Below are positions 20,546 through 33,426 of a stretch of DNA of 37,584 nt, piece by piece. The notes below the pieces were generated by a model that worked only from the letters and a program-made list of their open reading frames with translations, was not told the DNA's origin and did not search any database. Where the stretch lies: the NCBI GenBank assembly GCA_947177635.1, contig CAMWVQ010000022.1, positions 1 through 37,584 on the forward strand, written 5' to 3'. How positions within the stretch are numbered: the first letter of the stretch is position 1; each line of letters opens with the position of its first letter. The stretch comes from an uncultured Porphyromonadaceae bacterium. Its GTDB lineage: Bacteria > Bacteroidota > Bacteroidia > Bacteroidales > Muribaculaceae. The translations under genes were made by a program, and so were the position numbers.

Positions 20546-23500
20546 TTATTCCACGACGGCGGGAGGCTCAACACCCCACTGGCTCTGAGACAGGCGCAGG
20601 TAGTTGTTGTAGCGCCAGAGAGCATTCGCCTTGGCGGCACCGAACAGCTCGGCAGCCTCGGCGGGATACTGCTTCTGCACAGACGCGTAGCGCACCTCAC
20701 CCTTGAGGAAGTCCTCGAACTTATCCCAGTCGGGAGTCTTCGAGTCGAGCGAGAAGGGATTCTTGCCTTCCTCTTCGAGAACGGGGTTGTAACGCCAGAG
20801 GTGCCAGTAACCGCATTCAACGGCCTTCTGCTCCTCAGCCTGCGACTTGCCCATACCCGAACGGAGACCGTGGTTGATACAGGGGCTGTAAGCGATGATG
20901 ATCGAAGGACCATCGTAAGCCTCAGCCTCGCGGATAGCCTTGAGGGTCTGGGCCTGGTCGGCACCCATGGCCACCTGGGCAGCGTAGACATAACCGTAGG
21001 TGGTGGCAATCAGACCGAGGTCTTTCTTGCGGATACGCTTGCCGGAAGCGGCGAACTTGGCGATGGCACCGATGGGGGTAGCCTTCGAAGCCTGACCGCC
21101 GGTGTTGGAGTAAACCTCGGTGTCGAGCACGAGGATGTTGACATTCTTGCCGGAAGCGAGAACATGGTCGAGACCGCCGAAACCGATATCGTAGGCGGCG
21201 CCGTCACCGGCGATGATCCACTGGCTGCGCTTGACGATGAAGCCCTTCAGGGTAACGATGCCCTTGCAGATGTCGCATTCGCAGGCAGCGCAGAGGGGAA
21301 CGATTGTCTCGTAAACCTCGCGGGTGGCGACAGCGTCGTTGCGGTTGTCGAGCCACTTCTGGGCCTGCTCCTTGATTTCGGCAGAGCAGCAGTCACAGGT
21401 GAGGGCCTGCTCCATCAGGGAGGTCAGGCGGAGCTGCATCTTCTCGTTGGCGATGGTCATACCCAGACCGAACTCGGCGAAGTCCTCGAAGAGGGAGTTT
21501 GCCCAGGCCGGGCCGTGGCCGCGGAAGTTGGTGGTGTAGGGGGTGGAGGGCACCGAACCGGAGTAGATCGAGGAACAGCCGGTAGCGTTGGCCACCATCT
21601 CGTGGTCGCCGTAAAGCTGGGAGATGAGCTTCACATAGGGGGTCTCGCCGCAGCCGGAGCATGCGCCTGAGAATTCAAACAGCGGGGTGGCGAACTGGGA
21701 GTTCTTCACATTGGCAGTGATGTCGATGAGCTCCTGCTTGGAGGATACGGACTTCACGCAGTAATCCCACTCGGGCTGCTTGTCGAGCTGAGTCTCCAGG
21801 GGCTTCATCTCGAGGGCCTTCACACCCTTCTTGCCGGGGCAGACATCCACGCAGTTGCCGCAACCGAGACAGTCGAGCACGTCGACAGCCTGAATGAAGC
21901 GCATGCCGGCAAACTGCTTGCCGATGGCGGGGAGGGTCTTGTCTTCAGCCACGGGAGCGTTCTTCATCTCCTCTGCGTCGAGCAGGAAGGGACGGATGGC
22001 GGCGTGGGGGCAGACATAGGCACACTTGTTACACTGGATACAGTTCTCCTCATTCCATTCAGGAACGAAAGCGGCCACACCACGCTTCTCGTAAGCGGCG
22101 GTGCCGTTCTGCCAGGTTCCGTCGGGGATGTTGGCGAAGTCGGAGACCTTCAGCAGGTCGCCGTCCTGGGCGTTGATGGGGCGCACGATCTTGTTGATGA
22201 ACTCGGGATCGTCGTTGGGGGCGGGCACCTCTACCTCGAGGTTGCTCCAGGCGGCGTCAACATCGAGCTTCTTGTACTCTCCACCACGGTCAACGGCGGC
22301 GAAGTTCTTGTCAACCACATCCTGACCCTTCTTGCCGTAGCTCTTGACGATGAATTTCTTCATCTGCTCGACAGCCAGGTCAACGGGGATAACCTCGGTG
22401 ATGCGGAAGAACGCGCTCTGGAGGATGGTGTTGGTGCGGTTGCCCAGACCGATTTCCTGAGCGATCTTGGTAGCGTTGATGTAGTAGACCGAGATGTTGT
22501 GGTCGGCGAAATATTTCTTCACCTTGGCGGGGAGGTTCTTGGCCAGCTCCTCACCTTCCCAGATGGTGTTGAGGAGGAATGTGCCGTTGTCACGCAGACC
22601 GCGGGTGACATCATACATGTGGAGGTAGGCCTGAACGTGGCAGGCTACGAAGTTGGGGGTGTTGACCAGGTAGGTCGAACGGATGGGAGCGTCGCCGAAA
22701 CGGAGGTGTGAGCAGGTGAAACCGCCCGACTTCTTGGAGTCGTAGGCGAAGTAAGCCTGGCAGTACTTGTCGGTGTTGTCACCGATGATCTTCACCGAGT
22801 TCTTGTTGGCACCCACAGTACCGTCTGCACCGAGACCGAAGAACTTGGCCTCGTAGGTCGACTTGTCGCCCAGGGCAACCTCCTCGGGGAGGGGAAGCGA
22901 AGTGAAGGTGACGTCATCGACGATACCCACTGTGAAGTGGTCTTTGGGCATCGGAAGGGCGAGGTTCTCGAACACGCCGATAATCTGGGCGGGAGTGGTG
23001 TCCTTCGAAGCCAGACCGTAGCGTCCGCCGACGATGAGGGGGGCGTTCTCCTTGCCGTAGAAACACTCCTTGACATCAAGGAAGAGGGGTTCGCCGGTAG
23101 CGCCGGGTTCCTTGGTGCGGTCGAGCACGGCGATGCGCTTGGCGGTCTTGGGGACAGCGGCGAGGAAGTGCTTGGCCGAGAAGGGGCGGTAGAGGTGAAC
23201 CGACACGAGGCCGACCTTCTCGCCGTTGGCGAGCATGAAGTCGATAGCCTCCTGGGCGGCCTGGGTAACGGAACCCATGGCGATGATCACACGGTCGGCA
23301 TCCTCCGCACCGTAGTAGTCGAACAGACCGTATTTGCGGCCGGTGATGGCGGAAATCTTATCCATGTACTCCTCGACCACATCGGCGATGTTGTCATAGG
23401 CGGGGTTGCAAGCCTCACGGTGCTGGAAGAAAACGTCGCCGTTCTCGGCCATACCGCGCGACACGGGAGCCTGGGGAGTCAGTGCGCGCTGACGGAAACG

Positions 23501-24109
23501 GTCGAGAGCCTCACGGTCAAGCAGCGGGGCGAGGTCGTCCTGCTCCATAACCTCGATTTTCTGAATCTCGTGGCTGGTGCGGAAACCGTCGAAGAAGTTG
23601 ACGAAGGGGATGGAAGCCTTGATGGAAGCCAGGTGGGCAACACCCGAGAGATCCATAACCTCCTGAACCGAACCTTCGCAGAGCATGGCGAAACCTGTCT
23701 GGCGCACAGACATCACATCCTGATGGTCGCCGAAGATGCTCAGCGCGTGGCTGGCAAGCGTACGGGCCGACACATGGAAGACACAGGGAAGCTGCTCACC
23801 TGCAATCTTGTACATGTTGGGGATCATCAGCAGCAGACCCTGCGATGCGGTATAGGTGGAGGTGAGCGCACCGGCCTGGAGCGAGCCGTGGACAGCGCCG
23901 GCGGCGCCACCTTCAGACTGCATCTCCTGTACAAGAACGGTCTCACCGAAAATGTTCTTTCGGCCTGCGGCAGCCCATTCATCGACATATTCAGCCATAG
24001 TCGAAGAGGGGGTGATGGGGTAGATGGCGGCTACCTCCGAGAACATGTAGGAGACATGAGCCGCTGCCTGGTTACCATCACAGGTCAGGAATTTTTTTTC
24101 TTTACTCAT
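20546..24109 (-). CDS. nifJ: Pyruvate:ferredoxin (flavodoxin) oxidoreductase, single-chain
   Basis: Oxidises pyruvate to acetyl-CoA and CO2 while reducing ferredoxin, central to anaerobic energy metabolism. It has 1187 residues, the fused homodimeric form. Domain order is the N-terminal pyrimidine-binding domain (PITPSSTMAEY near residue 36), domain II, the gamma domain, and then two ferredoxin 4Fe-4S motifs: CIQCNKCAYVCP near 688 and CLGCGNCVDVCP near 746. The C-terminal thiamine-diphosphate domain has a third cluster site beginning CSGCGE near 818, GDGAAYDIGFGG near 968 and DTEVYSNTGGQ near 996. The ATG at 24109 gives the standard start. It is monocistronic, with its own promoter and terminator. 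Confidence 0.97.
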   Translation of the reverse strand: MSKEKKFLTCDGNQAAAHVSYMFSEVAAIYPITPSSTMAEYVDEWAAAGRKNIFGETVLVQEMQSEGGAAGAVHGSLQAGALTSTYTASQGLLLMIPNMYKIAGEQLPCVFHVSARTLASHALSIFGDHQDVMSVRQTGFAMLCEGSVQEVMDLSGVAHLASIKASIPFVNFFDGFRTSHEIQKIEVMEQDDLAPLLDREALDRFRQRALTPQAPVSRGMAENGDVFFQHREACNPAYDNIADVVEEYMDKISAITGRKYGLFDYYGAEDADRVIIAMGSVTQAAQEAIDFMLANGEKVGLVSVHLYRPFSAKHFLAAVPKTAKRIAVLDRTKEPGATGEPLFLDVKECFYGKENAPLIVGGRYGLASKDTTPAQIIGVFENLALPMPKDHFTVGIVDDVTFTSLPLPEEVALGDKSTYEAKFFGLGADGTVGANKNSVKIIGDNTDKYCQAYFAYDSKKSGGFTCSHLRFGDAPIRSTYLVNTPNFVACHVQAYLHMYDVTRGLRDNGTFLLNTIWEGEELAKNLPAKVKKYFADHNISVYYINATKIAQEIGLGNRTNTILQSAFFRITEVIPVDLAVEQMKKFIVKSYGKKGQDVVDKNFAAVDRGGEYKKLDVDAAWSNLEVEVPAPNDDPEFINKIVRPINAQDGDLLKVSDFANIPDGTWQNGTAAYEKRGVAAFVPEWNEENCIQCNKCAYVCPHAAIRPFLLDAEEMKNAPVAEDKTLPAIGKQFAGMRFIQAVDVLDCLGCGNCVDVCPGKKGVKALEMKPLETQLDKQPEWDYCVKSVSSKQELIDITANVKNSQFATPLFEFSGACSGCGETPYVKLISQLYGDHEMVANATGCSSIYSGSVPSTPYTTNFRGHGPAWANSLFEDFAEFGLGMTIANEKMQLRLTSLMEQALTCDCCSAEIKEQAQKWLDNRNDAVATREVYETIVPLCAACECDICKGIVTLKGFIVKRSQWIIAGDGAAYDIGFGGLDHVLASGKNVNILVLDTEVYSNTGGQASKATPIGAIAKFAASGKRIRKKDLGLIATTYGYVYAAQVAMGADQAQTLKAIREAEAYDGPSIIIAYSPCINHGLRSGMGKSQAEEQKAVECGYWHLWRYNPVLEEEGKNPFSLDSKTPDWDKFEDFLKGEVRYASVQKQYPAEAAELFGAAKANALWRYNNYLRLSQSQWGVEPPAVVE

Positions 24110-24204: not shown

Positions 24205-24400
24205 CAAAAATTCCCCGAAAAACCTCCCTCCCACACCTTAAAATACGCAAAACTTCATTAATTTACACCCACCTTACACCCACCTACTCTCAACGTTCGT
24301 CCCATTAAACTACTAACTTGCCACCTGTCCTCATCCAACTGCTCCAACTTCGCCCCTATCCCTTACACAAAATTATCACAAGTATAATTAAAAAAATGCT

Positions 24401-24431
24401 TTTGCTAATTAAAAATTGTTCAGTAACTTTG
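24401..24431 (+). promoter_or_regulatory. Strong promoter at the left end of the AT-rich island
   Basis: TTTG (24401-24404), a 19-base spacer, then TAACTTTG (24424-24431), matching both boxes exactly. The next intact gene starts 280 bases downstream, so the leader is unusually long. Confidence 0.7.
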
Positions 24432-24700
24432 CCACAAAGAATCCAATCTCATTAAAAATTTTGTGCTTCTTCCTAACTACCAACATCAACGCTTCTTTTA
24501 AAACAGGACACGAGAAACAGCAAGATGTGGTAGGAGCTGTATGCTCTGGAGGAAAACGAATTTGAGATTGCACTCAAGATAGCCCTTGAAATGCACTAAA
24601 AAGGCCGGGCTATTTGCCTAATTAGGCATTCCTAAATTACTTGACAATGTCAATGGTGATTTTGGCACGTTCTATATCCACAAAATATGTCTATCACTAT
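24432..24700 (+). other. Leader/decayed region at the island edge
   Basis: No intact gene. One frame reads KMW, stop, then ELYALEENEFEIALKIALEMH and a stop (about 24524-24598), which looks like the end of a decayed reading frame of unknown family. A 12-bp palindrome GCCTAATTAGGC lies at 24616-24627. Confidence 0.35.
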
Positions 24701-24713
24701 TAAAACTAACCAG

Positions 24714-25085
24714 ATGAAAAAAACAACCATAGCCCTGTTTTTTAGTCTTCTTGCTTGTTCCAATATATCAGCAAAAAAAATATTTGTGGAGATGGAATTT
24801 CACAAAAACTGCATTAAACTTGATGATGGCACAAACAAAAAGAAACAGACGCTTAAAGATGAAAATGGCAAAGAGTTGAAATTCACATCGCTTATAGGCG
24901 CACTGAATTATATGTCGTTGCAAGGTTGGGATTTGGTAGACACCAAATCTGTCACATCTGGAAGTGGATATGTAGGGACTTATGGAGGCGCAAGTTCCAC
25001 AAGCACTAAAATTTATTACATATTTAGTCGGGATGTTTCAGAGGAAGAGTTAATGCATTTTGTCAAGGATAGTTATAAGGAATAA
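24714..25085 (+). CDS. Small exported protein of unknown function
   Basis: A 123-residue protein. The ATG at 24714 is preferred to the one nine codons upstream because it begins the signal sequence (MKKTTIALFFSLLACSNISA). LLAC could be a lipobox, giving a lipoprotein with Cys at about residue 16, or the signal could be cut after ISA. The body has GALNYMSLQGWDLVDT followed by a glycine/serine-rich loop and KIYYIFSRD, a fold-like pattern seen in short proteins of mobile regions of Bacteroidales. Its base composition is AT-rich like the rest of the island. It is probably driven by the promoter at 24401-24431. No function can be assigned. Confidence 0.65.
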   Translation: MKKTTIALFFSLLACSNISAKKIFVEMEFHKNCIKLDDGTNKKKQTLKDENGKELKFTSLIGALNYMSLQGWDLVDTKSVTSGSGYVGTYGGASSTSTKIYYIFSRDVSEEELMHFVKDSYKE

Positions 25086-25127
25086 TCCAGTTCCTGCATT
25101 GGTGGGCACTAAGATTTGTAGTACGAA

Positions 25128-25547
25128 ATGAGCCAGAAGTCGATACGTTTTTCCAATGACCGCGAGGTTCGGGCGGCGTGGGATGACGAGAACAGCTGCT
25201 GATGGTTTTCGGCTACGGATATCGTGCGGGCCATCAATGACGAACCGGACGATACAAAGGCCGGTAATTATTGGCGCTGGCTCAAACGAAAGCTAAGACA
25301 GGAGGGCATATAACCCGTGAGCGCCACTCACGGGTTCAAGTTTGAGGCTCCTGACAAGCAGCAGTGTATCGCAGACGTATTATGGAATCGGATTGACAAG
25401 AATGAATACTTGGGTGCGATGCGTGAAAACGTAGTTGACTCCACTCATATCAAAGCCTTGTTGAGAGGTGCTTTGACCGACAGAATCAATGACCGCGAGA
25501 TGTTTATGAAAGGGATTGGCTCCTCATACTACTATGAGGAGCCATAG
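25128..25547 (+). pseudogene. Decayed chimera: BRO-type antirepressor N-terminus joined to a Fic-protein C-terminus
   Basis: One frame from ATG 25128 to TAG 25547 is broken by two in-frame stops: TGA at 25200-25202 and TAA at 25311-25313. The first ~85 codons read like a BRO/antirepressor-type protein: IRFSNDREVRAAWDDENS, WFSATDIVRAINDEP, NYWRWLKRKLRQEG and HGFKFEAPD. After IADVL the sequence changes to the C-terminal end of a Fic-family protein: RIDKNEYLGAMRENVVDS, IKALLRGALTDRINDREM, then SYYYEEP. The Fic catalytic motif is absent. This is best explained by a deletion joining two neighbouring genes, followed by nonsense decay. Family names rest on motif recall. Confidence 0.72.
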
Positions 25548-25571
25548 TTCATTGATGAGCCATAGTTCATT
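25536..25571 (+). repeat. Tandem duplication, 2 x 18 bp
   Basis: GAGGAGCCATAGTTCATT (25536-25553) is followed directly by GATGAGCCATAGTTCATT (25554-25571), with one mismatch. It spans the stop codon of the Fic remnant. Confidence 0.85.
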
Positions 25572-25626
25572 TGAATCAATTCGTGGATTTTTAGGATTAC
25601 ATACCGCTAATCTCACGAAAAATAGC

Positions 25627-25634
25627 TAACTTTG
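25627..25634 (+). promoter_or_regulatory. -7 element of the restriction-modification operon
   Basis: TAACTTTG, an exact -7 match, 150 bases before the methylase-nuclease start. The -33 position is poor. A small hairpin (GCAT-CGCT-ATGC, 25643-25654) lies at the predicted 5' end of the RNA. Confidence 0.55.
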
Positions 25635-25715
25635 CAATATAAGCATCGCTATGCGAAATGACCAAGAATATCACAACGACATAACAGCGAAAACCGTAAA
25701 CAAGAACATTAGAAG

Positions 25716-25781
25716 CTCCAACGTAGTCGCTTAAAGGCTTTGGTCGGTCCCGCATAGCTGCGCTGGAGTTTTACTTTTTAG
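25716..25781 (+). terminator. Terminator-like hairpin in the leader of the restriction-modification operon
   Basis: CTCCAACGTAG (25716-25726) pairs with CTGCGCTGGAG (25758-25768): 11 positions with one A-C mismatch and one G-U pair, and a 31-base loop. It is followed by TTTTACTTTTTAG. It ends only a few bases before the ATG at 25785. It could attenuate the operon, or terminate a ~140-base RNA from the 25627 promoter. Confidence 0.5.
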
Positions 25782-25784
25782 CTA

Positions 25785-27701
25785 ATGGCGAAAAAAGAGG
25801 TTAAAACAGACCTTTGGGTTTATGAGTTGTTGCAAGAAGCTAACATTCAACTAACGCCACAAGGTTGCGACATAATAGAGATTGATGAGGCGTTGAAAAC
25901 AGCGTCAAAATCAAAAACTGGAAATGCAGGCTATCCCGAGTATTGCGGAGTAGTCAATGATTTTATTATCGTAATTGAGGATAAGGCCTCGCTTGACAAG
26001 CATATTTACAAAGATGACAACGGTTTGTTGTCTCAAGAAGTCAAAGCCGTAAAGGATTATGCAGTCAATGGTGCTTTATTCTATGCTTTACACCTGGCAG
26101 CAAATACTTCATATAACAAAGTCTTGGCTTTTGGCATTTCCGGAAATGAAAGACACCATAGGATAACACCAATATTTGTTAATGAAAGAGGGGATTATCA
26201 AGAACTATCAGATGTGGAAACTTTTATCTCCTTTAATAACGCAAACATTGACGAGTATTATGTAAAGGAAATATTACAAGAAGAGACCGACGTTGAAAAA
26301 ACCACAACGGAAATTCTCAAAGATGCCGAAAAGCTTCATAACGACCTGCGTAACTATGGTAATCTTACTACAGAGCAGAAGCCGTTAGTCGTATCTGGAA
26401 TAATGCTTGCTTTGCGCGAAATTGAACATCGAAATTTCGCAATAGATTCTCTTATTGGTGACGCACGGATAACAGACGGTCAGAAAATCTACGACGCAAT
26501 CAAGAGCAATCTATATCGTGCCAATGTCACTCCGGACACAAAGCGAGACAAGCTACTCAGCCAATTCTCTGTAATCAAAGACACGACAAAAATCAATGAA
26601 ATAGATGACACGTTAGGTAAGACACCTCTTCGGCATTATACCGAATTTCTTTACAACAGTATTTTTAAAAATATTAGGTATCGCAATTCAGCCGAAGACT
26701 TTCTTGGACGCTTTTATGGCGAGTTTATGTCATACTCTGGCGGTGATGGACAAACCTTAGGGATTGTTCTTACGCCAAAGCATATCACGGAACTATTTTG
26801 CGATTTAGCTCAACTTGATGTTTCGGATAAGGTTTTCGACCCCTGTTGCGGCACCGCTGGCTTTCTCATTGCTGCGATGCACGCAATGGTGAAGAAAGCT
26901 GATGACGAAAGCCAAAGAAGATGTATCAAGCGCGATCAATTATTCGGAATAGAATTGCAATCATACATGTTTACAATTGCCACTACTAATATGATTCTAC
27001 GTGGCGATGGGAAAAGCAATTTGCATAATTTAGATTTCCTCCGTCAAAACCCGAAACAGCTACAGCTTAAAGGGTGTACCGTAGGAATGATGAACCCTCC
27101 ATATTCTCAAGGGTCTAAAGCTAATCCTGATTTATATGAAATTAGCTTTACCGAACATTTGCTTGATTCATTAATTGAGGGTGCGCGAGCTATTGTTATT
27201 GTTCCTCAGTCATCCGTTACAGGCAAGAGCAAAGAAGAACAACACATCAAGAGTAACATTCTTAAAAATCACACATTAGAGGGTGTTATAACTCTAAATA
27301 AAAACACATTTTATGGCGTAGGGACAAATCCCTGTATAGCTGTATTTACAGCCGGGATTCCGCACGACAAAAATCATTTTTGCAAATTCATAAATTTTGA
27401 AGATGACGGATTTGTTGTTAGCAAGCACATCGGTTTGGAAGAAACCTCCAGCGCCAAAGATAAGCGGCAGCATTTACTTGATGTATGGTTTGGACGCGTT
27501 AAAGCTGAAACTAAGTTTTGCGTAGAAACAACTATTGAAGCAGAAGACGAGTGGCTCCACTCATTCTACTACTTCAATGATGAAATTCCATCTGAAAAAG
27601 AATTTGAGAATACAATGGCTGATTATCTGACTTTTGAGTTCAATATGATAACTCACGGCAGAGGCTATTTATTTGATAATGATACAAACTTAGATAAATA
27701 A
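25785..27701 (+). CDS. Combined restriction nuclease and N6-adenine DNA methylase (BcgI-type RM subunit)
   Basis: A 638-residue protein that probably both methylates and cuts DNA. The N-terminus carries a PD-(D/E)XK-like pattern: P51-E52 in AGYPEYCG and E65-D66-K67 in FIIVIEDKAS. A helical region (about 160-280) leads to the methylase domain, with motif I FDPCCGTAGF near 351 and the catalytic NPPYSQ near 436. Pairing with a separate specificity gene and a length close to 640 residues match the BcgA subunit of type IIB enzymes such as BcgI. It has no helicase domain and no hsdR gene is in the window, so it is not a standard type I set. The specificity gene starts 4 bases downstream. Base composition is AT-rich compared with flanking genes. 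An inactive nuclease cannot be excluded. Confidence 0.8.
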   Translation: MAKKEVKTDLWVYELLQEANIQLTPQGCDIIEIDEALKTASKSKTGNAGYPEYCGVVNDFIIVIEDKASLDKHIYKDDNGLLSQEVKAVKDYAVNGALFYALHLAANTSYNKVLAFGISGNERHHRITPIFVNERGDYQELSDVETFISFNNANIDEYYVKEILQEETDVEKTTTEILKDAEKLHNDLRNYGNLTTEQKPLVVSGIMLALREIEHRNFAIDSLIGDARITDGQKIYDAIKSNLYRANVTPDTKRDKLLSQFSVIKDTTKINEIDDTLGKTPLRHYTEFLYNSIFKNIRYRNSAEDFLGRFYGEFMSYSGGDGQTLGIVLTPKHITELFCDLAQLDVSDKVFDPCCGTAGFLIAAMHAMVKKADDESQRRCIKRDQLFGIELQSYMFTIATTNMILRGDGKSNLHNLDFLRQNPKQLQLKGCTVGMMNPPYSQGSKANPDLYEISFTEHLLDSLIEGARAIVIVPQSSVTGKSKEEQHIKSNILKNHTLEGVITLNKNTFYGVGTNPCIAVFTAGIPHDKNHFCKFINFEDDGFVVSKHIGLEETSSAKDKRQHLLDVWFGRVKAETKFCVETTIEAEDEWLHSFYYFNDEIPSEKEFENTMADYLTFEFNMITHGRGYLFDNDTNLDK

Positions 27702-27705
27702 CCGC

Positions 27706-28329
27706 ATGACAAAAATTGAAGATAAGAATTGGAAGGACTTTTATCTCTACGAGTTTTTTCATTGCGTAAAAGGTAATCAAAATAATATGGCATCATTACT
27801 ACCTGGTAATGTGCCTTTAGTATCCGCAAAAAAATGTGACAATGGATATAAAGGCTTTGTCACTTCCTATGGAAAAAAATATTTTGAAGGATGTATTATC
27901 ACGTTAAATAATGATGGTGATGGAGGCGCAGGGATTGCTTATTACCAGCCTTATAAAATGGCTTTAGATAGCCATGTTACTGCTCTCATTCCGAAACGTA
28001 ATATGGGTAAACATCTTCTTCTTTTTATTGCTGTGTGTATAACAAAACAGCGAAATAGATTTGGTCATGGTTATTCTTTGAATAGTAACAGATTAAGGTC
28101 TTTCAAGCTAATGTTGCCATTAGACCAAACAGGTTTTGTCCCTGATTGGCAATTTATGGAAGAGTACATGAAACAGAAAGAACAAGATATATTGAAGCCC
28201 ACAATAGAAAAGCTATGCAAACAACTGATAATCAACGATATACTGGGGGGGGTAAGTGTCTACACTCCAAATGGCAAGAATTCATATTTGGCGAACAATT
28301 CTCTATCCAAGCCACAAGTAGCGGCATAG
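27706..28329 (+). CDS. Specificity subunit, module 1 (phase-variable HsdS/BcgB-like)
   Basis: A DNA-recognition subunit partner of the upstream methylase-nuclease. The 207-residue product in this sequence holds one target-recognition domain (from NWKDFYLYEF), ending in LPLDQTGFVPDWQFMEEYM and a coiled-coil to about residue 180. It then meets a run of eight G at 28245-28252. With eight G the frame continues 25 residues to TAG at 28327-28329 and misses module 2. With nine G (or six) it reads straight into module 2 (GGGKCLHSKWQEFIFGE); with seven or ten G it stops at once at TAA. So this is the short state of a longer gene. Half-length S subunits can work as dimers in some type I-like systems. 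Confidence 0.82.
   Translation: MTKIEDKNWKDFYLYEFFHCVKGNQNNMASLLPGNVPLVSAKKCDNGYKGFVTSYGKKYFEGCIITLNNDGDGGAGIAYYQPYKMALDSHVTALIPKRNMGKHLLLFIAVCITKQRNRFGHGYSLNSNRLRSFKLMLPLDQTGFVPDWQFMEEYMKQKEQDILKPTIEKLCKQLIINDILGGVSVYTPNGKNSYLANNSLSKPQVAA
28245..28252 (+). repeat. Poly-G tract 1 (8 G), probable phase-variation switch
   Basis: Eight G bases followed by TAAG, exactly between specificity modules 1 and 2. Such runs are prone to slipped-strand length change. All three frames give a distinct outcome: immediate stop (7 or 10), a short junk tail (8, as here) or fusion to module 2 (6 or 9). Confidence 0.8.
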
Positions 28330-28826
28330 ATAAGAACAAACTCAATCCAAAAGAGGGGCCTATCCCATACATTACTCGTTCCGACTTAAATAACGGAATG
28401 GATATTTTCGTGACTGAGCAATCACCCCGATATAAGGTTGATGAAGGTAACGTGATTACTATCGGTCTTGACACTCAAACTGTTTTCTATCAGCCCACCT
28501 CATTTTATACTGGACAAAACATTCAAATCATTAGGCACTCTCAATTAGATAGATATAATGCATTGTTCCTAATTGTCGCGATAAAAAAACTCGTAGGAAA
28601 GTTTAGTTGGGGTAGTTATGGCGCAACTTTAACAAGATTGAGAAAGAGTAGAATATATTTACCTGCCACTAATACGGGCGAAATTGATTTTGCCTTTATG
28701 TCTGCTTTTATGAAAGATGTTGAATGTAACATCCTAAATTCCACACTTAAAATCTTCAAAAATAGAGCAATTATTAACAAATCTAAATATGGGGGGGGTA
28801 AAATGGAAGAACTTTCTCATACGTGA
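28253..28826 (+). CDS. Specificity subunit, module 2 (second target-recognition domain, out of frame here)
   Basis: This reading frame is open through the G tract and encodes a full recognition module: KWQEFIFGEQFSI, SSGIDKNKLN, PYITRSDLNNG, NVITIGLDTQTVFYQP, FYTGQNIQII, then a LRKSRIYLPATNTGEIDFAFM coil region. It has no convincing start codon of its own, only a TTG inside module 1 at 28146, so expression should depend on tract 1 changing to 9 or 6 G. With that change the joined product is about 373 residues, a normal two-domain specificity subunit. It ends at TGA 28824-28826, nine codons past the second G tract. The start given is the module boundary, not a start codon. Confidence 0.78.
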
Positions 28827-29310
28827 TGTATTTCCAACTCTTGTCCCAGGGAAATCAAAAGGACTTAATCACATACAAAAAACAGACAATGGGATAAGTT
28901 ATCTTGGTGCTACCAATCAAAACAATGGTGTGCTATGCTTTGTAAATCGAATTGATGACCTTATCCAAAAAGGGAATTGCATTGCCTTTATTCGGAATGG
29001 CGAAGGGTCTATGGGATATTCAGTTTATAAGGCTGAGAATTTCATAGCCACCTCAGATATGACTTTAGGTTATAATAAACACTTGAATAGATATACGGGG
29101 ACTTTCATAACTACCATAGCAGACCGAGTCAGAGGAAAATATAATTTTGGATATAAGCGTAGTGCGGCTCGTCTATCCAAAGAAATTATCTCTTTGCCAG
29201 TTGATAATGACGGTTTCCCCGATTGGGAGTATATGGAAACATATATGCGTAATATTGAAAGCACACAAATCTTGCAGTATCTACAATCTATCAAAACCAA
29301 GTGGCGATAA
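28789..29310 (+). CDS. Specificity subunit, module 3 (third target-recognition domain)
   Basis: A 173-residue frame starting at an ATG whose G is the first base of the second G tract (ATG GGG GGG GTA with eight G). It encodes another module: VKWKNFLIRDVFP, NGISYLGATNQNNG, NFIATSDMTLGYN, YNFGYKRSAARLS, then LPVDNDGFPDWEYMETYM and a short coil ending in KTKWR. With eight G it can be translated alone from this ATG. With seven (or ten) G, module 2 reads into it directly. Three modules in tandem exceed the usual two. The stop TAA at 29308-29310 is followed in the same frame by the 29311 remnant. Confidence 0.75.
   Translation: MGGVKWKNFLIRDVFPTLVPGKSKGLNHIQKTDNGISYLGATNQNNGVLCFVNRIDDLIQKGNCIAFIRNGEGSMGYSVYKAENFIATSDMTLGYNKHLNRYTGTFITTIADRVRGKYNFGYKRSAARLSKEIISLPVDNDGFPDWEYMETYMRNIESTQILQYLQSIKTKWR
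28791..28798 (+). repeat. Poly-G tract 2 (8 G), probable phase-variation switch
   Basis: Eight G bases followed by TAAA, between modules 2 and 3, with the same arrangement as tract 1. Coming from module 2, nine G gives an immediate stop, eight a nine-residue tail and a stop, and seven a fusion to module 3. Confidence 0.8.
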
Positions 29311-29877
29311 CCTCAATTAAATAATCTGACTGGCAGCATCGCAATATACGATGACCGCATAGAGATTGCCAACCCCGGCATATTCCCTCCTCAAATATCA
29401 CCCGAATCCATCAAGGAACCACACGAGTCATACCCCTACAATCTAAAGATTGCCGAAGCTCTATATAAGTCAACCTATCTGGAAAGCTGGGGTTCCGGGG
29501 CAAAACGAATAATGGATGCTTGCCGCGAGCAAGGTGTAGAAGAACCCATATGGCGTTGGGATGGAGGCTTCGTAATCGTCACTTTCAAACGCCATACTGG
29601 AAACATCGCTCCCAAAGAAAGCATCAAATCGAACGGCAAAGGGGACGACATACACGCTGGCAATCACGACAGAGAAACCAAAGAACTGCCCAAAGAAATT
29701 ATTGACGCAATCAATAATCGCGGTTTGACGGAAGTTCAATGCAATCTGTTGTCTCTGATTATATCAATGCCCTCTATAACATTGACCAAGATGGCGGAAG
29801 AATTGGATATGACCATAGATCAGGTTCGGACTTTGAGAAAGAAGATGGAAAATAAGGGTGTGTTTATTTGTCTATAG
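29311..29877 (+). pseudogene. C-terminal remnant of an AlbA_2-type ATP-binding transcriptional regulator
   Basis: The frame reads without a stop from 29311 to TAG at 29875-29877 but lacks an N-terminus and a good start codon (first ATG at 29512). Early residues fit the GHKL-ATPase-like end of AlbA_2/Schlafen-type regulators: GSIAIYDDRIEIANPG, LKIAEALYKSTYLESWGSG and AKRIMDACREQG. The end contains a winged-helix-like segment (LTKMAEELDMTIDQVRTL). The AlbA_2 domain itself is missing. It is in frame with module 3 upstream, separated only by TAA, as if a recombination cut off the rest of the gene when the RM locus arrived. Confidence 0.72.
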
Positions 29878-29970: not shown

Positions 29971-32900
29971 ATGTCAGAATCTGTGACAGCCGCCTCCGCT
30001 GAGGGGGTATGCCTGCTGGAGTCTCTGGCGAAGGGATTTCTGTCTCCCGCCAGGAAGATGGCTATTGACCGCGCGCTCGAACTCGCACGCGGGGGAAATG
30101 TCGTGACCCTCGGTGGGCTTGCGGGTTCCTCCGTGGCTATGCTGTTCGGGGGGATGGCCCTCGCTGCCAATGGAAAGGCCAATGGGAATACCTCCGGGAA
30201 ACAGAAAGGGACACCGGAGAATGTGCCGGCGTTGCTTGTCGCCGACTCGATGGATGACGCGGGGTATCTCTACAACGACCTTGTCAAGATACTGGGTGAC
30301 AGCGCGGTGATGATTTTCCCGTCGGGTTACCGCCGCGACATCAAGTATGGCCAGGTGGACCCGCCGCAGCAGATTCTGCGCACCGAGGCTCTGAGCCACT
30401 GGACCTCCGACCCAGAGCTGCGTTTCGTGGTATCTTACCCTGAGGCGATGGCCGAGAAGGTGGCGTCGCGGCAGGTCATCAACGACAAGACGGCGACTTT
30501 CTCTGTCGGCGAGGAAATCGACCTGGAGAAGACGCGCCGATGGCTCCTCGACAATGGTTTCCTCCCGGTCGACTATGTGTATGAGCCGGGGCATTTCGCC
30601 ATCCGTGGCTCAATCATAGATATTTTCGGATATTCGGGGGAATTGCCTTACCGTATCGACCTCTTCGGCGACGAAATAGAGTCGATACGCACCTTCAACA
30701 TCGAGACGCAGCTGTCGGAACAGAAGGTTGACTCGGTTGCCATCACCGCCAATGTCTCCTCCGATGGTGACGCCGGGGAGAGTCTGCTCGACTTCATCCC
30801 CCCATCCACCGTCATAGCGGCTGCCGACCTCTCAAGGCTCGTAGGGAGAATCGAGGCTATCGCCAACGACAGTTTCTCATCCTCGGCGGTGATTGCCGGG
30901 GAGGGTGACGTCCAGGCGATGAAGCAGCTTGTCGACCCGGCGAAATTCGCCCGGAAGCTGGCCGGGTTCACCCGCCTGGAGTACACCGCCGCCACTCCCC
31001 CAAAGGAGTCGGAGACGGCCCTCGACTTCGGTTGCTCCCCGCAGGGGCTTTACCACAAGAATTTCGACCTAATCTCGGCCTCTTTCCTGAAATTCCTCAG
31101 TGAGGGCTACAAGATTTATATCCTGACCGACTCCCAGAAGCAGGCCCAGCGACTCCACGCCATCTTCGAGGAGCGGGAGGATAAGATTCCCTTCACCCCG
31201 GCGTCGGCCACCCTCCACGAGGGGTTCGTCGACCACAGGATGAAACTCTGCCTCTTCACCGACCACCAGATTTTCGACCGTTTCCACAAATACTCCCTCA
31301 AGAGCGACCGCGCCCGTTCGGGTAAACTCGCCTTGTCGCTCAAGGAGCTGTCGGCCATCGAGACAGGCGACTACATCGTCCATGTCGACCACGGTGTCGG
31401 TAAATTCGGGGGGCTGCTGCGCACCCAGGTCAACGGCACCACCCAGGAGATGATCAAGCTCATCTACAAGAACAACGACTGCATCTTCGTCTCTATCCAC
31501 GCCCTCCACAAGCTTGCCAAATACCGAGGGAAGGAGGGTGTCGAGCCTACCATCAACAAGCTCGGCTCGGGGGCCTGGAACCGGATGAAGGAGAAGACCA
31601 AGAAGAAACTCAAGGACATCGCCCGCGACCTCATCAAGCTCTACGCCGCCCGCAAGGAGGAGAAGGGTTTCAGCTTCTCCCCCGACAGCTATCTGCAGCA
31701 CGAGCTTGAGGCGTCGTTCATATATGAGGACACCCCCGACCAGCTGACGGCCACACGCGATGTCAAGGCCGACATGGAGAGCGAACGCCCGATGGACCGC
31801 CTGATTTGCGGCGATGTCGGTTTCGGCAAGACTGAAATCGCCATCCGCGCGGCATTCAAGGCGGCCACCGACGGCAAGCAGGTGGCGGTGCTGGTGCCGA
31901 CCACGGTGCTGGCCTACCAGCACTTCAACACCTTCCGCGACCGCCTGAAGGACTTCCCTGTCAGGGTCGACTACCTCTCCCGCGCCCGCACCTCCAAGCA
32001 GGTCAAGGATATACTCAAAGACCTCGCCGACGGGAAGATAGACATCCTGGTCGGCACCCACCGCCTTGTCGGGAAGGATGTGAAGTTCAAAGACCTCGGG
32101 CTGCTTGTCATCGACGAGGAGCAGAAATTCGGCGTGGCCGTAAAGGAGAAACTCAAACAGATGAAGGTCAGCGTCGACACCCTCACGATGTCGGCCACCC
32201 CCATCCCCCGCACCCTCCAGTTCTCCCTGATGGGCGCCCGCGACCTGTCGTCGATAACCACCCCGCCGCCGAACCGCTACCCAATCCTGACCTCGGTCAA
32301 CACCCTGACCGACGACCTCCTGGCCGAGGCCGTCAACTTCGAGATGTCGCGCAACGGCCAGGTGTTCATCATCAACAACCGCATCGAGGGGCTGATGCAG
32401 CTCGAGCAGATGGTCAAGCGCATCGTTCCCGACGCGCGCACAATCGTGGCCCACGGCCAGATGCCCCCCGAGAAGCTCGAACAGGCAATCATCGACTTCA
32501 CCAACCACGACTACGACGTGATGCTCGCCACCACAATCGTCGAGAGCGGCATCGACATGCCCAACGTCAACACTATGATTGTCAACAACGCCCAGAACTT
32601 CGGCCTCTCGGAACTCCACCAGCTCCGCGGACGTGTCGGGCGCAGCAACCGCAAGGCCTTCTGCTACCTGATGGTGCCGCCGGGCAACCCCCTCACCCCC
32701 GTGGCCCGTCGCCGCCTCCAGGCCATCGAGGGCTTCTCCGACCTGGGGTCTGGCATCCACATCGCGATGCAGGACCTCGACATCCGTGGCGCCGGAAACC
32801 TCCTCGGGGCGGAGCAGAGCGGCTTCATCGCCGACCTCGGCTACGAGACCTACCAGAAAATCCTCAAGGAAGCGGTCACCGAGCTGCGAACCGAAGAGTT

Positions 32901-33426
32901 CGCCGGGACGTTTACCAAAGAGGAGCACGGCCACTCCCCGGAGGAGGAGACCGAATATGTCGCAGACTGCGTGATCGAGAGCGACCTCGAACTACTCCTC
33001 CCCGCCTGGTATGTCCCGCAGGAGAGCGAACGCATCTCCCTCTACCGCGAGCTCGACTCGATGGAGCGGGAGATGGACATCCGCGAGTTCCGCTCACGCC
33101 TTGTCGACCGCTTCGGCAAGATACCCCCCGAGGCGGCGGAGCTTACCCGGGTGCCGCGCCTGCGCCGCCTGGCCCGCCAGCTCGGCATCGAGAAGGTGGC
33201 CCTCAAACAGGGGACGATGTACACCTACTTCGTCGACTCCCAGAACCTGGCCTACTACCAGTCGCCGATGTTCGGCCGGATGATCGCCTACCTGCAGAGC
33301 CATCTCTCCACCGTGAAGATACGCGAGAACGGCCAGAAACGCTCATTCGCCTTCTCCAACGTCCCCGACGTCGAGACCGCCGTCGCGATTCTCTCCGAAA
33401 TACTCAACCTCGAAACAACCCATTAA
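29971..33426 (+). CDS. mfd: Transcription-repair coupling factor
   Basis: A DNA translocase that removes stalled RNA polymerase at lesions and recruits UvrA. It has 1151 residues, the full length. Order: N-terminal UvrB-like domains (to ~460), the RNA-polymerase-interacting domain (GDYIVHVDHGVGKFGG near 468), then the helicase core with Walker A GDVGFGKTE near 612, DEEQKFGV near 714 and the motif VI region (QLRGRVGRSNR near 885), and the C-terminal TRCF domain. Residues 65-78 carry an insertion rich in G and N (NGKANGNTSGKQ). slyD follows 15 bases after the stop. Confidence 0.96.
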   Translation: MSESVTAASAEGVCLLESLAKGFLSPARKMAIDRALELARGGNVVTLGGLAGSSVAMLFGGMALAANGKANGNTSGKQKGTPENVPALLVADSMDDAGYLYNDLVKILGDSAVMIFPSGYRRDIKYGQVDPPQQILRTEALSHWTSDPELRFVVSYPEAMAEKVASRQVINDKTATFSVGEEIDLEKTRRWLLDNGFLPVDYVYEPGHFAIRGSIIDIFGYSGELPYRIDLFGDEIESIRTFNIETQLSEQKVDSVAITANVSSDGDAGESLLDFIPPSTVIAAADLSRLVGRIEAIANDSFSSSAVIAGEGDVQAMKQLVDPAKFARKLAGFTRLEYTAATPPKESETALDFGCSPQGLYHKNFDLISASFLKFLSEGYKIYILTDSQKQAQRLHAIFEEREDKIPFTPASATLHEGFVDHRMKLCLFTDHQIFDRFHKYSLKSDRARSGKLALSLKELSAIETGDYIVHVDHGVGKFGGLLRTQVNGTTQEMIKLIYKNNDCIFVSIHALHKLAKYRGKEGVEPTINKLGSGAWNRMKEKTKKKLKDIARDLIKLYAARKEEKGFSFSPDSYLQHELEASFIYEDTPDQLTATRDVKADMESERPMDRLICGDVGFGKTEIAIRAAFKAATDGKQVAVLVPTTVLAYQHFNTFRDRLKDFPVRVDYLSRARTSKQVKDILKDLADGKIDILVGTHRLVGKDVKFKDLGLLVIDEEQKFGVAVKEKLKQMKVSVDTLTMSATPIPRTLQFSLMGARDLSSITTPPPNRYPILTSVNTLTDDLLAEAVNFEMSRNGQVFIINNRIEGLMQLEQMVKRIVPDARTIVAHGQMPPEKLEQAIIDFTNHDYDVMLATTIVESGIDMPNVNTMIVNNAQNFGLSELHQLRGRVGRSNRKAFCYLMVPPGNPLTPVARRRLQAIEGFSDLGSGIHIAMQDLDIRGAGNLLGAEQSGFIADLGYETYQKILKEAVTELRTEEFAGTFTKEEHGHSPEEETEYVADCVIESDLELLLPAWYVPQESERISLYRELDSMEREMDIREFRSRLVDRFGKIPPEAAELTRVPRLRRLARQLGIEKVALKQGTMYTYFVDSQNLAYYQSPMFGRMIAYLQSHLSTVKIRENGQKRSFAFSNVPDVETAVAILSEILNLETTH

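Follow-up and report, generated by a model that had tools for sequence, protein, structure and literature searches.

Introduction

Most known phase-variable methylases are either turned on and off or exchange alleles through recombination. In the type I system NgoAV of Neisseria gonorrhoeae (hsdS1/hsdS2), the length of a G-tract is reported to determine whether a truncated 208-aa specificity (S) subunit (GCAN8TGC) or a fused S subunit (GCAN7STCA) is produced (PMC9577141). Three consecutive target recognition domains (TRDs) are described in the S subunit of the type I system JHP1422/JHP1423 (M.Hpy99XV) of Helicobacter pylori, where pairs of TRDs correspond to different motifs, two of which are methylated (PMC3936762). 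According to the same account, TRD3 of JHP1422 works alone and reads a palindrome, presumably as a homodimer, and TRD1 alone failed to methylate its half-site in palindromic form; three TRDs are also predicted for several S subunits in REBASE (PMC3936762). H. pylori further carries the type IIG system HP1353-HP1354 / JHP1272, in which the second of two homopolymers adds a C-terminal recognition domain and alters specificity, and BcgI-like systems (HP1471/HP1472 and JHP1364/JHP1365) consisting of a fused restriction-methylation (RM) protein and an S subunit with a phase-variable G13/G14 tract in the S gene (PMC3936762). In the type IIB enzymes BcgI and BsaXI, a fused RM subunit acts with a separate S subunit of tandem TRDs in a 2RM:1S complex (PMC3874165; PMC11997821). 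As stated in a 2013 review, one-TRD homodimers, natural or engineered, had been reported for type IC only (PMC3874165).

The locus described here lies in the window, a 37,584-nt stretch of DNA from an uncultured Porphyromonadaceae bacterium (family probably Muribaculaceae), and consists of a fused RM gene and an S locus of three TRD modules (M1, M2, and M3) with a G-tract at each of the two joints (T1 and T2). As in NgoAV, G-tract length would decide between a truncated and a fused S subunit; NgoAV has one tract, two TRDs, and separate HsdM/HsdR, whereas the window has two tracts, three TRDs, and a fused RM. TRD2 and TRD3 of JHP1422 are identical, and the relevant part of the published account describes no repeat-gated joints. 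In contrast, the pairwise identity of M1, M2, and M3 is only 24–28%, which indicates three different recognition domains and not recent copies, and their joints are gated. HP1353-HP1354 / JHP1272 is, in our judgement, the closest functional precedent, although it is an MmeI-like single chain whose first tract acts as an on/off switch and whose added part corresponds to part of a regular TRD, not to a full third one. HP1471/HP1472 and JHP1364/JHP1365 differ in having one tract, and no third TRD is mentioned for them in that part of the source. Like BcgI and BsaXI, the window has a putatively fused RM and a separate tandem-TRD S, whereas the two TRDs of BcgI and BsaXI occupy one fixed frame.

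Results

The N6-adenine methylase family PF02384 was matched in the RM protein at E 1e-30, and residues 3–631 were aligned with positions 3–631 of the 637-position PADLOC model REase_MTase_IIG (E 2e-170). The NPPY and D...ExK residues were invariant across 5 aligned relatives, and the D...ExK-like pattern may represent a nuclease motif. The first 218 aa of RM gave no match to any Pfam family, nuclease domains included, at E 5. As in BcgI-like systems, the Methylase_S-domain S locus is separate from the RM gene and directly downstream of it, with M1 beginning 4 nt past the RM stop codon. No separate HsdR motor subunit was found between ORFs 20546–24109 and 29971–33426, where RM is the sole large ORF; judging from the translations, these ORFs presumably encode pyruvate:ferredoxin oxidoreductase and mfd, respectively. 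The G+C content of RM and the S locus is 36–39%, compared with 59% and 61% for the big neighboring ORFs, a difference that suggests horizontal acquisition. Within the host's own genome, a search with RM returned this locus as the one close copy, together with one weak match (27% identity, covering part of the methylase).

A low-G+C island extends over positions 24300–29877 (36–45% in four measured stretches) between the large 59% and 61% ORFs. Just 3' of the S locus, positions 29320–29877 match HATPase_c_4, a RecG-like C-terminal family (E 3.5e-20), and this piece may be what is left of a gene cut short where the island ends.

The features of the locus are listed in Table 1. PF01420 (Methylase_S) gave a separate match for each of the three modules, which start with NWKDF (M1), KWQEF (M2), and KWKNF (M3) and end with LP...DWQFM, LP...DFAFM, and LP...DWEYM, respectively. 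The three successive modules, the frame shifts between them, and both runs of eight G had been recognized in an earlier sequence-only reading of this DNA, and the coordinates, frames, and borders given there were correct. Whereas BcgI-type systems typically have two TRDs in one frame, the S locus of the window is divided into three modules that occupy frames 1, 0, and 1, so the system would function in the manner of BcgI but with a variant S.

Table 1. Positions of the RM gene, the TRD modules, and the tracts in the window
Feature	Position	Strand	Frame and remarks	Match
RM subunit (fused restriction-methylation; BcgI-like / type IIG)	25785..27701	+	638 aa	PF02384, PADLOC REase_MTase_IIG
TRD module 1 (M1)	27706..28329	+	frame 1; 207 aa as assembled	PF01420, E 6e-13
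TRD module 2 (M2)	28215..28826	+	frame 0; open from internal ATG at 28215	PF01420, E 1e-17 on longer ORF 28146-28826
Tract T1	28245..28252	+	G8, M1/M2 joint	
TAA abutting T1	28253..28255	+	stop for one length class	
TRD module 3 (M3)	28789..29310	+	frame 1; open from ATG 28789 abutting T2	PF01420, E 1e-9
Tract T2	28791..28798	+	G8, M2/M3 joint	
TAA abutting T2	28799..28801	+	stop for one length class	

The reading frame behind each tract depends on the tract length modulo 3. For T1, a remainder of 0 fuses M1 to M2, a remainder of 1 stops M1 at the tract, and a remainder of 2, as assembled, adds 24 aa before a stop codon. For T2, a remainder of 1 fuses M2 to M3, 0 gives an immediate stop, and 2, again as assembled, adds 8 aa. 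The lengths of T1 and T2 in the window are those of one assembly consensus. In this 8/8 state no modules are fused; M1 carries the 24 additional aa, and since M2 and M3 are open from their in-frame ATGs, three separate one-TRD proteins are possible. The ATG of M2 overlaps the end of M1 and lies 112 nt upstream of the M1 stop codon, a distance that we think is poor for translational coupling, and M2 and M3 might each be translated alone from their internal ATGs. A start for M2 was not found in 5 of the 14 three-module loci that are unfused at the first joint. We dropped the idea that M2 has a conserved start of its own, both on account of these 5 loci and because its ATG coincides in part with coil codons, which are conserved in any case. 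The frames allow all of the products that had been proposed from the sequence (M1 alone, M1-M2, M1-M2-M3, and M3 alone); these forms and their separate specificities are predictions.

In a search of 297 genomes of the same family with RM, 29 matched at E 1e-20 or better, 5 of which, the window's own included, matched at 1e-200 or better; at the level of the order, 12 of 393 genomes matched at E 1e-80. The S layout of the more remote family matches (L007–L031) was viewed through a listing of G-runs alone (L003–L031). From a scan of named genomes, the best 80 of 313 relatives were taken and combined with the window, G173, and G006 into a survey set of 83 loci, in which two family genomes that, judged by length and position, share contigs with named loci (G292 = L084 and G008 = L074) were each counted once. 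Ten of the 83 loci had under 1,700 nt of sequence downstream of RM and were set aside, and 73 were counted. Because the 80 named loci were the best matches among 313, the following fractions describe near relatives and not the whole family.

Three modules were present in 33 of the 73 loci, two in 37, and one in 3, and two repeats on three modules were found in 15 of the 73. The layout thus recurs in related genomes, where the sequence-only reading had suggested looking for it. Besides the window, G173, and G006, the hosts of three-module loci were Bacteroidales, Streptococcus, Gemella, Anaerococcus, Ezakiella, Peptoniphilus, Fenollaria, Veillonella, two MAGs titled Tissierellia and Acholeplasmataceae, Moraxella, and Avibacterium. 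Thirteen of the 15 two-repeat loci are titled as Bacteroidales groups; the other two, the window and G173, both belong to the family of G292. The layout is present in independent assemblies, including those of the isolates Phocaeicola faecicola and Bacteroides mediterraneensis. In a quick RM tree, the presence of the third module changed at least 10 times and the state of the second joint ('none' included) at least 5 times, counts that are rough, with G006 on one long branch. Three RM relatives (L096, L110, and L120) have a single-TRD S, which suggests that one-TRD forms can serve this RM family, presumably as homodimers.

In three Streptococcus loci (L095, L099, and L103), RM is separated from the three-TRD S gene by a 342-codon ORF, which in L095 matches RhuM (PF13310, E 4e-111). 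A gap of the same size separates RM and S in L100, L101, and L104.

Simple repeats were counted in the 83 loci as G or C runs of at least 7, A or T runs of at least 9, dinucleotides repeated at least 5 times, and longer units as coded. The junctions, 7,190 nt in total, contained 58 repeats, whereas a single repeat was found in the module interiors (86,322 nt), another single one in the RM genes (155,210 nt), and 24 in the flanks (407,870 nt). The junction excess gave Fisher p values of ~1e-63 against the module interior and ~1e-82 against the flank, although these p-values, like the E-values, are not true probabilities because the surveyed loci are related. The joint between TRD2 and TRD3 contained a simple repeat in 32 of the 33 three-module loci, with G006 as the exception, and the kind of repeat varied by lineage: (AT)n in 14 loci, poly-G in 10, poly-C in 6, and (AGCCG)n in 2. 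At the first joint, a repeat was present in 26 of 73 loci with at least two modules (33 three-module and 40 two-module loci, three incomplete), and three-module loci had runs of 7 to 13 G there. A tract length of exactly 8 G recurs in several species. In the 17 gated three-module loci other than the two-tract ones, M1-M2 is one ORF and the repeat occurs at the second joint alone.

Of the three phases at each of the 32 gated second joints, one gives a fusion and two reach a stop codon no more than 28 aa past the repeat. The tail of M2 beyond the domain was 3–34 aa in 20 now-unfused loci, compared with 0–19 aa in 37 natural two-TRD loci. Fused second joints numbered 12 of 32, approximately the one third expected without a favored phase; no preference for the fused or the unfused phase was seen at this joint or at the first joint of the two-tract loci (2 of 15, p 0.17). 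The single-ORF three-TRD form, which is unfused in the window, was found in 7 of the 33 three-module loci (L097, L099, L103, L105, L133, L139, and L141). On the other hand, none of the 15 two-tract loci was fused at both joints. An M1-M2-M3 protein was therefore not seen in Bacteroidales, and the seven triple ORFs belong to other lineages.

In Moraxella lacunata (L141:8031-8110), 16 AGCCG copies at the TRD2/TRD3 joint encode a PSRAE peptide repeat inside S, and L139 has four AGCCG copies at this joint. A G15 tract in an Anaerolineales MAG (L107) and a G11 tract in Neisseria dentiae (L089) lie at the TRD1/TRD2 joint of two-TRD S genes, so that the NgoAV-like arrangement of a single tract and two TRDs also occurs in BcgI-like systems.

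Near-identical loci differed at the tracts. In an alignment of L076 and L077 over 7,329 columns, there were 1 substitution and 1 indel, and the indel was in T2 (8 versus 9 G). L076 and L075 differed over 3,176 columns by 4 substitutions, three of them at the alignment edge, and by 1 indel, in T1 (8 G in L076 and 9 in L075). L078 and L079, which are 95% alike, had two indels within RM and S, one in T1 (8 versus 12 G) and one in T2 (8 versus 11 G); three further indels lay upstream of RM. The resulting read-out is M1 | M2-M3 for L076, M1 | M2 | M3 for L077, and M1-M2 for L075, whose contig ends in M2. These results indicate that both joints vary, and not in step. Length differences between near-identical copies, the trait expected of SSR phase variation, thus occur in relatives (L075/L076/L077 and L078/L079), and the tracts are not fixed among relatives.

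The stretch shared by L076:4568-11895 and L077:4568-11896 is at least 7.3 kb long at 99.97% identity, and the upstream DNA differs. The two loci are titled Bacteroides mediterraneensis and Mediterranea massiliensis, respectively, and the shared 7.3 kb reflects either recent transfer or cross-contamination, the strains having neighboring numbers in one series.

Selection on the modules was assessed in 33 codon comparisons. Pairs with different alleles had a saturated or meaningless dS and were given no weight; same-allele pairs were relied on. Between the window and L072, the differences at codon positions 1/2/3 were 27/17/88 in M1, 17/7/86 in M2, and 23/13/79 in M3, and the third-position excess also held for modules that the assembled tract lengths place out of frame. 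The dN/dS values between L078 and L079 were 0.12, 0.10, and 0.33 for M1, M2, and M3, respectively. From these codon patterns, we conclude that all three modules are under selection; the frames past the tracts are conserved in relatives, and a lack of such conserved frames would have spoken against the sequence-only reading.

Clustering of 186 modules at 60% identity gave 21 clusters of at least 2 members and 30 singletons. The largest cluster consisted of 40 modules drawn from first, second, and third positions. M3 of the window shared its cluster with the second domains of the two-TRD loci L116, L119, and L135. Taken with the third-position excess, this allele sharing makes it very likely that M3 is a genuine recognition domain. 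The predicted folds of naturally fused S proteins were those of two- and three-TRD subunits. The pTM of the models was 0.52 and 0.63, and the whole-chain TM-score of the first model against known S subunits was 0.22–0.36 by query length; with such low values, domain placement in the models is not evidence.

Discussion

The locus is probably a horizontally acquired BcgI-like (type IIB/IIG) system in which a three-TRD S with a slippery repeat at both joints switches specificity, and we hold this reading with good confidence. The initial view of a BcgI-type specificity locus with three TRDs and two length-switches holds, and relatives beyond the window agree with it. In the proposed mechanism, DNA polymerase slippage would alter the lengths of T1 and T2 independently. 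Each run has three length classes: one fuses the neighboring modules, and in the other two the upstream product stops after a short tail, so that a lineage could switch among M1 alone, M1-M2, and M1-M2-M3, and possibly M2, M3, or M2-M3 through internal ATGs. G8 is short for fast slippage. M1 alone would be expected to pair with itself and to read a palindromic site, as for NgoAV. One-TRD S forms need not work, in view of TRD1 of JHP1422 and of the limitation to type IC. Each S form would direct the RM subunit to a different DNA site; as all forms would serve the same subunit, the methylated and cut sequence would change and the enzyme would not.

We are evenly divided on a broader proposal, in which repeat-gated third TRDs are widespread and repeatedly evolved, with one RM subunit served by a three-domain cassette of hypermutable joints, acting as a three-by-three-state switch in Bacteroidales and as a two-/three-TRD toggle in Streptococcus, other Firmicutes, Moraxella, and Avibacterium, with the triple form methylating two sites at once. 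The occurrence of four unrelated repeats at the same joint in different lineages points to repeated selection.

Other explanations of the tracts were considered. The extra TRDs might mainly be a reservoir from which domains move between positions by recombination (DOMO), the G-runs being tolerated linkers and frame switching incidental. DOMO has been published (PMC3077401), and similar TRD alleles do occur at positions 1, 2, and 3 of different loci. However, this explanation, which we consider unlikely, does not account for repeats of four kinds in 32 of 33 second joints, exactly where fusion is decided, or for tract indels in otherwise near-identical DNA; a TRD reservoir with DOMO may well act alongside the switch. 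A marginally less likely alternative places the slippage on RNA, RNA polymerase or ribosomes slipping at G8 to give several S forms per cell from a fixed DNA sequence. Although the exact G8 in several species would suit constant transcriptional slippage, the DNA lengths themselves differ between near-identical loci, the first-joint tracts of three-module loci range from 7 to 13 G, and ribosome slippage fits poorly with the (AT)n and (AGCCG)n repeats found at the second joint.

It is very improbable that the S gene is decaying or misassembled, with M3 as a relic and the G-runs as sequencing errors. Homopolymers are error-prone, and G006 has no second tract and an M3 broken over two frames. Against this stand the presence of the layout in independent assemblies, named isolates among them, the third-position excess in all three modules where alleles match, and the use of M3-type TRDs as second domains in L116, L119, and L135.

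The sequence-only reading had proposed that two independent switches on three domains are an undescribed arrangement. Since three-TRD S subunits, BcgI-like S subunits with a G-tract, and a two-tract type IIG system have each been published, this stands for the combination alone, which looks undescribed. In the literature searched, no description was found of two tracts on three TRDs, and surveys of type I repeats may list such loci; nor was one found there of a repeat-gated third TRD across unrelated lineages with different repeats. The expression 'three TRDs' is absent from part of the text of a survey of duplicated hsdS genes (PMC7394358), and GAGCC or AGCCG from part of a Moraxella catarrhalis survey (PMC6241649).

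Through one-base slips at two joints, a 1.6-kb locus could reach several specificities without needing a recombinase or a second copy of the gene. If this is true, gut Bacteroidales would be able to change their self/non-self marking quickly towards phages and incoming DNA, and perhaps their gene regulation as well. Such S genes may be mistaken for broken ones in automated annotation. Ordinary reads give the tract length and long reads the methylated motif, so the link between the two is directly testable.

The host genome contains ~33 runs of at least 8 G in 2.64 Mb, and of 18 contexts viewed, several were without a clear ORF. An element consisting of TTAAC, up to six bases, and at least 7 G was found in the host genome (G000) at 11 distinct places (20 overlapping matches), and the backwards pattern at none. 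The places are C10:27345, C12:8172, C12:45654, C16:43881, C23:24959, C28:27293, C29:734, C29:2991, C35:11933, C48:11504, and C96:3792. The element is often followed by TAA, like T1 and T2; G7TAA had 17 matches, compared with 3 for the backwards pattern.
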